Shown here one piece after another: positions 6,581 through 45,600 of a DNA stretch of 48,317 bases. The DNA comes from Ectocarpus siliculosus (lineage: Eukaryota > Sar > Phaeophyceae > Ectocarpales > Ectocarpaceae), in assembly GCA_000310025.1 (NCBI GenBank), contig FN648480.1:52234-100550 (forward strand), read 5' to 3'. Numbering within the stretch: position 1 is the stretch's first letter; every line of letters begins with the position of its first letter. Below the pieces are notes generated by a model. It was given only the letters and a program-made list of their open reading frames with translations. It was not told the origin of the DNA and searched no databases. The position numbers and the translations under genes are program-made.

Positions 6581-8398
6581 TCAAGAAGCTCGCGTGTACC
6601 TGGATTTCGACGCCGGCTCGACGTAGCTCTCGAGCTTGGGCGGGACGTACGGCTCCGCAGCCTGTTGGGCCTTTTTCATCCTCTCCAGCATCCGTGCCTG
6701 CATGACAGGGTTAGCCTCGAAGATGGCCTGTAACCGACTGGCGTCCTCCGGCTGTCGTGTCGCGATAAGTGGCAAGTGGCAAGTGGCAAGTGACATGAAG
6801 AATCATGATCGGTATGGGAGCAGGGGGGGGGGGGTGAGGAACGGTAGGAGAAGACGACAGAGAAAATAACAAAGACAAGCGACTTCGTGAATCGTGCTCA
6901 AGACGATCACTTCGTTCAGGACAAAGAAGTACTCCTATTCACACTAAACGGTGTATGAGCGGACTCGTCTCCATTCGTCTGCTCGCTCGCCAACCCCCCG
7001 CAGCGAGCGAAACACAAAACAGGGAGAGAGAGAGCCGACGAGGAGTTGGCCAGGAAGAAAAACTCCTAAAACCGCCAATCTGTACAAACTCGCCAACCAC
7101 CTTCCAGTGTACAATTGGTAACCAACAGCCCATCTTTCGGTACCACAAAATCGGCGAAACAAAAGCTGGGCTTGCTTCCGCTTCTCCCGAAAAAACAACT
7201 GTCGCCGCTATGCTAACTTGCAGCAACCACGAATACCGCCACTGGACCTTCGATGCAGATGGAGCACCACCCCTACTGCTACCGGTCTAGATGCGAAAAA
7301 AGACGGTCTAGATGCGGAAAAACCGTACCGAGTAGCCCAGCAGCGAGTCCACGAACAGCACCGGCTCGAAGTCCCTCAGGTCGTACAGCGACTCCCCGAC
7401 GCCGATGAGCTTGACGGGTACCCCCAGGTCGCTGACGATGCTAACCACGAATCCCCCTCGGGCGGTTCCATCCAGTTTGGTCACCACCAAAGCCGAGATT
7501 CCCACCTGGACGGGCGAAGGGGGGAAAGAAAGACGCAGCGAGGTGCTGTTGTGGTCAAGTAGAGGACAAGCGGGAAATTGGCAATAGGCTACACCACCTC
7601 GATGGGCGAAGGGGGCGAAGAAAGACGCAGTGCGGTGCCGTTGTGGTCAAGTCGGGGACAAGGGGGGACACGGCAGCGGGCTACATCGCCGAATCAACCA
7701 ACGGGTGCAGTAGTATAAGTTCGGCGGAGCCCCCTTAGGTTCGTGGTTGTTCGTCACCGGGCTGGGGGATGAGTGTGGTACAGCGGTAGGAAGGCGAAAT
7801 ATTCACAGGATTTGAGGCCTGATCAACACCAGCTTAAGCATGGAATACCGATCGGCCGCAGCAGCATACACGCGCCAATTGTTGGGAACGCCCTGGTGGT
7901 AATCGGGAAAAAAAAAAATCGTTGTACTGCTGCAGTGCGTTTAGCCCAGGCTTCGTTGGTGCAAGCGCGAACCGTGTCATGAGAAAAACATTGTTGATCG
8001 TTCCAAGCGTTGTATTCTTATGATTTTATGTACCTTTCCTCGTGCAATCTTTGCCGCAGTACAACAAAACGAACGCTTCGTACTTTTCTCGAGGCTCACC
8101 GCTGCTGTAGTCCTCTCGGTTGGAAATTGTTGACGTTGATGTGGTATTGTCCCGTGATATCAAAACTGGTGGGTTTTGTCCCGTCAAATCAAAACTGGCC
8201 GAGGTTGCACTACTGCCGTAGCTCACCTCTTGCTTCCACGTCCTGGCCTGATCCACAGCGTTCCTACCCACGGAGGCGTCTACCACCAGCAGGGTGTCGT
8301 GCGGGGCCCTAGAAACGGACACAAACACAATACCAGGTATTTGAATTAAAAAACAACACTAAATCAGCACAGAAAACACTAGGTTTCATGGGAACCGA

Positions 8399-9068: not shown

Positions 9069-11521
9069 ACAAGAATCAACCCCTCTCCCTGCTGCTTTCA
9101 CTTAAGACCATGGCAACCATATCTCCGACACGGTTGTTCTCGCGGGCCGACTTCGCCGCCACCAAACATTTCTCTCAATTTCTGGCGACACGAAGCCGGC
9201 AGCAGGGTACCCCAAGTACCCGTGTGTGGTCCAGCCGTCAACAAAAAGCACGCCCTATTCTGATTTCGACCCGTTATTTCGGAAACAAGGACGCCGCGCC
9301 TCCGTCCTGCATCACCGTCTCTTCACGGCGAGGAACCCTGGATAGGAGGCAATGCCGGAAGGGCTGTATCAATGGCAGAGCTACTGGGCAATCAAAGGGG
9401 GAGGGCGATAAGTTATTGGCGCACGCCTGTGTAAACCAAACAAATCACCCTGTTGTCGCCATTGTTGCGCATCTCGCTTGGTGCTTAGCGGCCGCTCTGC
9501 AAGCACCAGAAAGCGTGCCCCGTTTCCTCCACGATACACGATACACAAGAAATAATGAACAGAGGGCACGAAAAAAACATGGAAACAACCAAAACAGCTG
9601 CCTGGGCACGGAAAGGTCAGCAGCCGACTCCGAAAAATAATCTACAGACGATGAGGACGTCTTAGCCCTCTGACAACAATGACACAAAAAAAAAAAAAAA
9701 ACGCTGAAGAAAAAAACACTAGATGCGGGCAGCATGGAGAAGAAAAGCAACGCGTTCGAAACAGAACCTACCCACTGGTGTCGACGATGAGGACGTCGTA
9801 GCCCTCGGACACCGCCTTCTCCGCCGCCCTCGCCACCACGGACGGAGGCCGTTCGTCCTTGTCGAGAGGCACCACGATGTCCGCCCCCGACCGCTCTGCC
9901 CACTCGTTCAGCTGCTCCACCGCCGCTGCCCTGTTAGTTATAATGTGTTTGCGGTTTGGTAGCCCCGGAAACTCCCGCCAACATAAAAGTTGTTCCACTT
10001 CAGTCAAAGTCTAAGATAATTGGTGAAGTAAATCTCCGACTCTCTTGCAAGACTAGTAAGACGCGCCCCGAAGGGTACGCCTCGTCAGCCGAAACCTGGA
10101 ATCGAGCATACGACAGCCAGAAGAAAAAAAAACACACACACATACACATACAACCGCTCCAGTGCCGCAGCGTTTCTAGACTCGACGCGAGGACAGCCAA
10201 AAACAACACAGTACTGCCGCTCCCAGAGTCGCAGCGAGCTTAACCTTCCCCTCTCCCGATCGCACTTGAAGGTGTCCGCGGCCGCGATGAGTACCCTAAG
10301 CCTCAATCCTCAACCCTAACCGTAAAACATCACCACCGCTCCAACGCGGGAGTCGTTCTGGTCTCGAGTTTGACTCAGCAACAGCCAAAAAACAAATCAA
10401 TACCACCACCGCTCCCGGTGCAACGATCATAACCCCAAACCAACACTACCACTTCCGGCGCGGGAGCCTTTCCGGTCTCCATTTGAGTCAACGACAGCCA
10501 AAAAACAAAACTATACTACCGCTCCTGGCGTCGCAGCGACCTTAACATTCCCTTCCACTGATCGCACCTGAACGTGTCCGCGGCCGCAAGAAGCACCTTC
10601 TGGCCCCCGTCCTCTCGCAGTCGCGAGGCCACCTTGCCCACCGTGGTGGTCTTTCCCATCCCGTTGGCCCCCATGAAGAACAGCACCGACGGGACCCCCA
10701 AAGACGGGTCGGCGAAGGTAATGGCCGCAGTGTCGCCTCCGCCCTCGGCGGAAGGCATGGTGCCGCCGTTGAGCACCTGGGTAGCAGCAGCAAGCGACAT
10801 GAAAAATGTGGCGCGTTCTTCGTGGTTTGTCGCACTTACAATGCCCCCTACAAGGCCGCTGAGTCTGCGCTTAGGCATGGCATGTTGAGACTGCTGTGCA
10901 AGACAGTGCTGCTGTGGCTGGACCAAGAAAACTAGTCCAGAATGGCTTCGCATTTTTTCTACATGAGCAGATAAAAGCAGAAAGATGGGTTGGGTACGAA
11001 CTTTGCAATACCTGCCAGCTATTTTCTCTCGATTCCGCGCGGCGCAATGCATCGGGCGCCTTCAGCGGAAAGTTCGCAGCGTGCAAAAATGACTAAAGCG
11101 GTTGGGGACCGAAAAAAAAGTACCAGGGAAAAAATGGAACGTTCTTCTCGCGAAACACACAAAGATAGTTGACGAAACGAACACACAACTTCATCGACGT
11201 TAGGCTTGTTGAGGTACTGGTAGAGACGACGGCATCATCACCAGCTCAGAAGCAGCAGCATGAACAACAGCAGGACCAACGCGTGGGAGTATCTATGCAT
11301 ACATGTGCAGCAGCAGACCTGGATCAGGGTTGCCCGTAGCACGGACTTGATGTCATCGGGCTCCAAGCGTCGGTCCTCGGCCTTGGCCGTGTTCCTGAGG
11401 TCCTCGATGATCTGGAAAGAGGTCGTAGCTCCTAGATCAGCTTGCAACAACGCCTTCAGAAGAGCACCCAGAGAGAGGAGAGACAGACAGACAGACAGAC
11501 AGACAGAGGGAGAGGGAGAGC

Positions 11522-42697: not shown

Positions 42698-45600
42698 TCC
42701 CGTCTCTCTCTCTCTCTCTAGTTTCTCGAGTTTCTCTCTCTCCCAGCCAACTCCGCCGGACGCGTTCGTTCTTTTCCTTCTTCGACCCAACACAACTCCG
42801 CACACACCACAAAGAACACACACACACACGGCATGCGTTCTCCCTACAACCCGACGACTTGACACATCCATTGTCGCCCCTGCCACCACCATGTCCGTGT
42901 CTTGGCCATGTCGCCATCATGCCGCAGGTTCATCAGGTCTAAGGAGGAGATGCAAGCTGTTGCGGAAGCTGCCAAGCTCAAGGATGCCGAGGGTGAGCTT
43001 AACCCCCCACCACGACCATTTTGGGCAAACCCCTCACGCCGGGAGGTGGTGGCACCACTGCTGTGGAGGCTCCGCGTGTACCCGTTTTTTTTTTTAATGC
43101 CTTGTGCCTTGGTCGTTTTGCGTGGAAAACGTTTTTTTGTCCGGGGAGCGTCTAGACAGTTTTGTGCCAGCTCGATTGACCGAATAGAAATGGTTTGTTG
43201 AGCCTGACATGTTTCCCCCCTCGTGCGTGCCATGTGAAGGTGGTGTTGTATTCGCTGAAAAATACCTCATGGGCGTACACCCGCCTGCTCCATCTGCCCG
43301 GCCCTTACGACGGCATCAACGAAATCATTTCCCTGTCTGTTTTTTTTAAGTCAATGGCTATGACAGCACCAAACTCGCATTCAGAGGGTAGATGCATCAG
43401 GCTATTCCTACACTGGCTGTGACAACGCAACAAACGCACTCAACGGGTAGATGTATCATGCTCTTCCCGCACTGGCTGTGTCACCACAACATACGCACTC
43501 AAGGACTGGTTCGGTCCCTGTTGCTCGAATGTCCCAACCATGTATTCTGCTCTCCCCGCACTCTGAACAGCGGCTTCGGTGGGCGACTCTGTAGAGACCG
43601 GCACTCCGTCCGAGAACACGAACGGCAACAAGAACGGCAAGGATAAGGGAGGAGGCGATTGGGGAGGAGGCAAGAAGGGAAAGCGGGGCCGCAACAAGAA
43701 GCGGCCGAAGGACGACCGCCCCGCCCAAGCGGACACTCTCTGCCAGCACCTGTCTGATGGGCGACCCTGCACCTACGGCGAGAGGTGCGGATACTTGAGT
43801 CGGTAGTCGACGCGACGTTTTGTTTTTTTCTGCTTCGGAGTTGTCAGTGCCGCCCTGTTGTTGTTTGTGTATGCACAAGTCTATCGTGTTTTTGTGGAAG
43901 GTTTGGGGCATACCGCTAGGTTAGAGGCATCGTGTTAATAAGGGCACTCGAAATTGTCAATGTCACCCTGTTGTATTGATACCAATGTGTATGTCTATCG
44001 TGTTTTTGTTTTTAACGTTTGGGGCATAGGTTTGAGCACCGCGTTAGTACTTCCGTTCGGCGGTGTCAATGTTGCGTTATTGCTTTGATACTAAGAGTAA
44101 GCCTATCGCATTTGTTTGGGGGAGATATTGGCATCTTGTTGGTACGGGCGTTCTGAGGCGCTAATGTCGCCTTGTTGATCTGATACATGTCTATCATGAT
44201 GTTTGTACGGCGGACGTCTGGCCATCGAACGTCCTCCCTACCGCGGTATACGATCCGGTTGTCACTTTTTTGTTGCAAGTATCGTTCGTTCTTCCAGGGG
44301 ATGCATGTGCTCCATCGTTTCCGAACGTGCCGCTCGTACCCGTCAAGTGGCGTTGCGTGTTGCTTGCTTTATTCAATCTTCCAATATCGGTGTCTTTCTT
44401 GCCTTGGAGGTATGTTGCATCACTTCGTTCACTCTTGCAATATCGGTGTCTTTCTTGCCTTGGAGGCATCGTTTCGCCCAACAAGTGGTGTATGAAGCCT
44501 GCTTTGTTCATTCAATATGTGTTGGTGTCTTTCTTGCCTTGGAGGTATCGTTTCGCCCACGACTTGATGTTGCCGATGATTCTCTGTACGTGAGGGCACG
44601 TTGCCTGCTTTGTTCACTCTTCACGCAACATGTGTCGGTGTCTTTCTTGCCTTGGCGGTGTGTTGCCATTGTTTCTAAGCGCCTCACGTGTGGTGCGCGC
44701 CTTGTTCGCTTCTTGCATTGCCGCTGTGTGTCTTGCCTTTCAGGTGTCGTTTCGCCCACGATGTGAAGGCGTACCTTGAGAAGAAGCCCCCCGACATCGC
44801 AGAGACTTGTCCGATCTGGGATGCTCGCGGGGTGAGTGGGTTAGCCTTACCTTTACATAGCTGCCGTCGTTGCTGGTGCCACCTCTTATTTTGCAAGGGT
44901 AAATACACGACGTTTCGATCCCTTTGCTTGTGAGTCGCGAAGTCGTTGCCCCGTCAGATTTTTTCTTGAAAGATTGTGTTACTGCGAATCAATTGTATTG
45001 GTACCGGCTTTGAAACAGTTGTGGAGAACGGTCCAAGCAATCATCAATTCTCGGCACATTTATGACCCGTTGGTTGGTCTGGCTGCCGAGCTTCGAAAAT
45101 CGACCCGACCTAGCTCATCTTGCGCTACCTACGGCGGTGGTAGCGACACCCTCATTTTGTGACCCTGCTTTCTCTACTATTTTAATTTTCAACTTCTTAT
45201 CGTTTGGTAAAGTTTTTTACCTTCCGGTCAAGACCAAAGTGCCAAAGCGGTCACTTTTCCAAGCCCCCCCCCCTCCCCCCCCCCCGCGCTCCTCCAGAAC
45301 TCTCCTCCGATTGTCCCGCTGTTTTTTTGCTACCGTCTGTTGGCACTGCGGCATCCCTCGGTCACTCAATGCCCCCGCTCGGGTGTCGATATATTTTTTT
45401 ATGGTTCACTAGAGTTGCCCGTCGGGGCTAAAGTGCCGGTTCGGCGGCGCCCACACGGACCTGGAGACGCTCAAGCCGGTGGTCCGGGAGGGTGGTCCGG
45501 CCCCGTCCTCCTTCAACTACATCAACGATCTTTCCAGGTCGGTGCTCTGCTATGCATCTGGAAGCCGAAATCAAACCGACAGACTCGGCAGCCAACCACG

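Follow-up and report, generated by a model that had tools for sequence, protein, structure and literature searches.

Introduction

Duplications that cross a splice junction are a proposed route by which introns grow and are gained. For intron gain, one study puts forward the same route and speaks of few proven recent cases (PMC4974935). In the potato RdRp gene, a tandem duplication across an intron-exon boundary gave rise to one more exon together with a new intron, as confirmed by RNA-seq (PMC4974935). A related system is provided by the dual-specific AGGT repeats of the human genes UBC and VCX3A, whose expansions, the authors suggest, are less harmful in that they can be spliced out (PMC10809524).

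Here we describe an array of four decoy acceptors in the third intron of a gene for DUS3L. As in potato RdRp, the duplicated unit joins an intron's 3' end, pyrimidine tract and AG included, to the start of the next exon; unlike the potato gene, DUS3L holds four decayed copies inside one enlarged intron, with no new intron evident (PMC4974935). Copies 1 and 3 and the real site resemble the units of UBC and VCX3A in having an AG/GT at the splice junction (here and below, a slash marks the junction). UBC and VCX3A, however, are tandem-repeat genes with the site lying within the units, whereas the copies in DUS3L sit in an intron, are uneven in length and have weakened splice signals (PMC10809524). 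As in human internal tandem repeats, units of tens to approximately 200 bp alter introns and exons, although the human cases are differences between paralogues in segmental duplications, and the DUS3L copies are decayed decoys at an acceptor (PMC2812944). Among the matches listed from open-licence papers, judged by title and opening of the abstract, no report of acceptor-decoy arrays in brown algal introns appears, which is weak evidence of absence.

Results

The DUS3L gene and its third intron

The window, that is, the whole 48-kb stretch of DNA analysed here, is G000:C81:52234-100550 in a 189-Mb assembly of 492 contigs. The DUS3L gene call and the intron coordinates of the initial annotation hold. 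The joined exons match zf-CCCH_DUS3L (E 3.2e-18), and a match of 30.1 bits to an exon of Dus, the dihydrouridine synthase domain, lies on the same contig past a run of N (C81:106847-106954), so that both the CCCH finger and the synthase domain that mark DUS3L are found. The run of N, several kb long and past the window end (L010), falls within the gene and separates the finger exons from the synthase exons. No second gene copy or haplotig was found: a 123-residue query from the finger region hits C81 alone, in four exon pieces.

Both junctions of intron 3 read AG/GT, and the reading frame across them restores the finger C-x8-C-x5-C-x3-H, which fixes donor and acceptor independently of transcript data. 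From reading frame and zinc-finger motif, we infer that the AG at 44743 is the working acceptor. A first self-trained coding model, which called exon 4 non-coding, was set aside; a second one fed the test of 111 sides reported below. The features discussed in this paper are collected in Table 1.

Table 1. Features of the DUS3L and FtsY genes, in window coordinates.
Feature	Position	Strand	Junction point	Remarks
DUS3L intron 3 (959 nt)	43785..44743	+		donor GAGAG/GTGCGG, acceptor TTTCAG/GTGTCG
Separate degenerate tandem array, first half of intron 3	43835..44108	+		period ~113 nt, traces to ~44200; 67% over 175 columns
Decoy copy 1	44359..44418	+	44409	tract, TTGGAG/GTATGT; without exon start
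Decoy copy 2	44423..44480	+	44465	tract, TTGGAG/GCATCG; GAG/GCATCGTTTCGCCCA
Decoy copy 3	44502..44562	+	44544	tract, TTGGAG/GTATCG; GAG/GTATCGTTTCGCCCACGA; best exon-start match, 19/20 from AG
Decoy copy 4	44600..44666	+	44657	tract, TTGGCG/GTGTGT; without AG, without exon start
Real 3' splice junction, parental unit	44711..44761	+	44743	TTTCAG/GTGTCG
Exon 4, first DUS3L zinc finger (CRFAHD...)	44744..44831	+		CRFAHD lies inside the zf-CCCH_DUS3L match
FtsY acceptor region	7502..7593	-		CCAG/GTGGGA, exon starts 7505
Tandem copy (92-bp) of FtsY acceptor region, upstream	7594..7685	-		decoy TCGAG/GTGGTG, GAG for CAG; 81.5% identical; ~4 exon bases
FtsY exon end and donor	10493..10587	-		TTCAG/GTGCGA
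Intronic copy (95-nt) of FtsY exon end and donor	10192..10285	-		302 nt downstream; decoy TTCAA/GTGCGA; 83% identical
Intronic copy (29-nt) of FtsY exon end	9647..9675	-		source 9783-9811; 93%; 136 nt downstream; ends before donor

An array of decoy acceptors

The initial annotation had reported four copies of the 3' splice region upstream of the acceptor, and we find the tract core GTCTTTCTTGCCTTGG there at 44392, 44448, 44527 and 44640. Its spacing of 60-100 bases was not borne out, the successive junction points, up to and including the real one, lying 56, 79, 113 and 86 nt apart. The repeat unit had also been taken to span the tract, the AG and the exon start. This description fits copies 2 and 3, each of which consists of the tract followed by approximately 15-18 exon-like bases and so crosses the boundary; it does not fit copies 1 and 4, in which the tract runs into a different continuation with no exon start. 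The exact 14-mer CGTTTCGCCCACGA from the exon start recurs upstream at one place (44549), and the shorter TCGTTTCGCCCA at two (44469 and 44548).

The last 25 bases on the intron side are identical at 23-25 of 25 positions among copies 1-4, versus 18 of 25 when the copies are compared with the real acceptor, and the flanks of the copies diverge more than this tract does. A tract so nearly identical could mean constraint rather than recent copying. The similarity between copies breaks off sharply and at differing points, as is expected from several small duplications of unequal length. As for the direction of copying, the CRFAHD encoded by the exon is the conserved state at the end of the finger, which makes the exon ancestral and the intron copies derived; on this coding evidence, the copying is from exon to intron.

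An AG was said to be kept by the third copy, which is correct, but that copy is not the sole one: three decoys (copies 1-3) keep it, each time as GAG with a G at -3, and copy 4 has GCG instead. The junction reads AG/GT in copies 1 and 3 as at the real site, and AG/GC in copy 2. It is conceivable that the array would act as a ratchet of dual-specific sites that takes the intron out in steps, with every decoy used first as an acceptor and, once regenerated, as a donor. The forms AG/GTATGT of decoy 1 and AG/GTATCG of decoy 3 speak for such use, an AG/GT-phased array also occurs at the L050 donor described below, and human cells do use dual-specific AGGT sites with weak motifs (PMC10809524). The AG/GC of copy 2 and the missing AG of copy 4 nonetheless argue against the ratchet, as does the length of the intron, which at just 959 nt does not evidently need steps, and we regard this reading as improbable.

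Use of a decoy would lead to an early stop, as the initial annotation had stated and as far as the frames can be read. Entry at copy 3 allows 15 codons before a stop. The same stop awaits entry at copy 1, whose frame is that of copy 3, and copy 2 lies in the open frame that closes at 44766, which is 23 nt into exon 4. Between copies 1 and 3, the 135 nt at 44410-44544 are stop-free in the gene's frame. These might form a small exon of an incipient intron gain, with copy 1 as its acceptor and the AG/GT of copy 3 as a new donor, for which potato RdRp is a precedent (PMC4974935). The resulting insertion of 45 residues would, however, disrupt the C-x5-C spacing within the finger, and the acceptor would be a GAG; we consider such a gain extremely unlikely.

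The same stops raise the question of a regulatory poison array, in which the decoys would compete with the real acceptor so that early termination puts a controlled brake on DUS3L expression. Three decoys do present an AG behind a pyrimidine tract that is nearly the same in all four copies, and the AG-free stretches upstream of the decoys that keep an AG (60, 54 and 45 bases) resemble that of the real site (62). Every decoy, on the other hand, is GAG or GCG, unlike the 11 acceptors that we placed in DUS3L and FtsY; the array's RNA fold is ordinary (z -0.69); and similar echoes occur in FtsY, an unrelated gene. Such a function is therefore very improbable. The positive evidence for tuned expression, for splicing in steps and for an emerging new intron does not go beyond the form of the sequence.

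The quality of the decoys as acceptors bears on a further claim of the initial annotation, namely that near-identical acceptors force a choice on the spliceosome. Twelve acceptors are listed for DUS3L and FtsY, and all 11 that we placed are YAG, a count that is partly circular because frame and motif guided their placement by eye. No decoy is YAG, neither in DUS3L (0/4) nor in FtsY (0/1), and the GAG, GAG, GAG and GCG of DUS3L thus fail to match the local acceptor consensus set by the 11. GAG and GCG are poor acceptors. The claim is weakened, since the decoys read TTGGAG, with purines at -4 and -3, or lack an AG, while the real site reads TTTCAG.

Comparison with chance and with the rest of the genome

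We asked how closely the intron matches its own acceptor. Scored against its own intron, with the last 60 nt of the intron left out, the 50-nt window around the junction reaches 49, and the best of 288 control windows reaches 24. The 19 exon bases alone score 31 against a control maximum of 20, while the tract alone scores 24, a value reached by 5 of the 288. The controls are overlapping windows of 899 nt from 19 sampled stretches of the same genome, each at least 52% pyrimidine (the array is 63%). With 60 dinucleotide shuffles, run under slightly different limits, the corresponding figures are 49 versus 26 for the junction, 30 versus 22 for the exon and 31 versus 28 for the tract. The decisive element is the exon copy; the pyrimidine tract by itself is not exceptional. 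In the comparison with CT-rich sequence that the initial annotation had proposed, closeness to the exon start therefore survives for the exon part of the units and does not for the tract taken by itself. Its suggestion that the array is a by-product of duplication at the junction gains support, because exon letters occur in the intron far above background.

Across the assembly, the 19-mer core with GAGG is found with up to two mismatches at no fewer than eight places, four of them in the array (0-1 mismatch) and at least four elsewhere (all with 2), versus at least five places for a reversed control pattern. The exact 16-mer ATCGTTTCGCCCACGA is found in at least one place, namely in copy 3. 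Allowing one mismatch adds at least nine further places, including the real exon, versus at least four for the control. A 430-base stretch of the array has one match in the assembly.

Three other readings of the array found no support. A mobile element is set aside because the 430-base stretch has a single match in the assembly and the places listed for the core elsewhere all have 2 mismatches, about as many as for its reversed control. For a structured RNA, no Rfam family reaches its gathering score in the window, and the fold of the array is unremarkable (z -0.69). A Rogers-type birth of the intron by exon duplication is not supported since, by eye, the sequence before the decoy AGs is unlike the end of exon 3.

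Exon-edge copies in other genes

The same window contains FtsY on the minus strand (SRP54 GTPase domain, E 1.9e-64), and three of its exon edges have intronic copies nearby: an acceptor region with its tandem copy, an exon end with its donor, and a further exon end (Table 1). The intron that holds the donor copy also shows a tandem duplication of its own, 10430-10546 versus 10317-10433. Outside the window, a DEAD-box gene (L050:276-583) carries four tandem units of approximately 65-70 nt, each beginning with AG/GT, of which the first lies at the putative donor, placed by where the domain match ends; the gap contains three stops in the exon's frame. Since exon-edge copies are present at three FtsY sites and one DEAD-box donor, the duplication process is not special to DUS3L.

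Altogether, a copy of an exon edge or junction is present in 5 of 32 introns or inter-exon gaps (DUS3L intron 3, three in FtsY, and L050), a proportion that includes the focal intron and was obtained with thresholds that were unequal across loci (34 bits and 600 nt versus a raw score of 40 and 900 nt). The 32 comprise 4 from DUS3L, 6 from FtsY, 17 from DEAD/AAA genes and 5 from Dus, bounded by homology or reading frame. Of the 22 DEAD/AAA and Dus gaps, 21 were checked, and stops or a change of frame interrupt each of them; the L036-L032 gap was checked over part of its length. Six interior duplications were seen as well (DUS3L introns 2 and 3, L043, L047, L049 and L036).

A search for exon-like segments elsewhere found an echo at 1 of 111 sides and at 0 of 307 control sides, but the exon matches it requires are longer than those of DUS3L, which would have escaped it. 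Local duplication clusters number 26 in 238 kb, the 48-kb window accounting for 10 and the other 190 kb for 16, and 10 of the 19 sampled stretches have none. Because the window is richer in duplications than average, we claim no genome-wide excess at junctions. When 692 pyrimidine-preceded YAG sites in the 238 kb were screened, 12 rows scored 36 or more, DUS3L and FtsY included, although several of these 12 are clearly no splice junctions.

Discussion

The array is likely what remains of short tandem duplications that recurred at the 3' end of intron 3, a neutral by-product that has since decayed. Some of these duplications would have reached across the junction, taking in approximately 15-18 bases from the start of exon 4. 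If the most downstream AG stayed the acceptor throughout, the extra copies would leave with the intron and the duplications would be tolerated. One decoy may have changed from YAG to GAG and been amplified afterwards, a course suggested by the TTGG common to all four copies. Hypothetically, occasional use of decoy 1 or 3 would also rebuild a donor-like AG/GT, which could be re-spliced to the next acceptor in a self-correcting step. A dedicated regulatory role is not needed, and the array is probably harmless to DUS3L. Tandem duplications in the first half of intron 3 and in intron 2 support the by-product account. The former (Table 1) gives no blastn match to the acceptor array at E up to 1; the latter has a 59-nt period (43352-43502 in the window).

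This neutral account is also the simplest one. Local duplications occur in introns, and those that cross a junction would survive because the extra copies then become intron, given that the outer splice site is kept in use. The same suggestion has been made for dual-specific AGGT repeats (PMC10809524). Both of the genes resolved in the 48-kb window, DUS3L and FtsY, have decayed copies of exon edges in their introns, and if the same were true genome-wide, then the rate of such duplications, the silencing of decoys and the preference for AG/GT would become measurable.

A more general conjecture, which we hold to be unlikely, is that introns here may commonly grow by duplications phased on AG/GT junctions, at acceptors and donors alike. 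The AG/GT would make such growth nearly free, since copies used wrongly would rebuild a splice site and go in a second step, and the leftovers would then be silenced at a critical base. In the four junction-spanning cases (DUS3L, the FtsY acceptor, the FtsY donor and L050), the real junction is AG/GT in 4/4, and the decoys are changed at a splice-critical base, again in 4/4. Under neutral divergence, the joint chance of such a change in all four is ~0.11, with the divergence of L050 entered as an estimate, and is not significant. At L029:5648-6090, a multi-copy array of pyrimidine tract and CACCAG lies upstream of an exon that by eye resembles a RING finger. The YAG decoys of this array are intact rather than weakened, which counts against silencing, although its units are not copies of the junction of the downstream exon.
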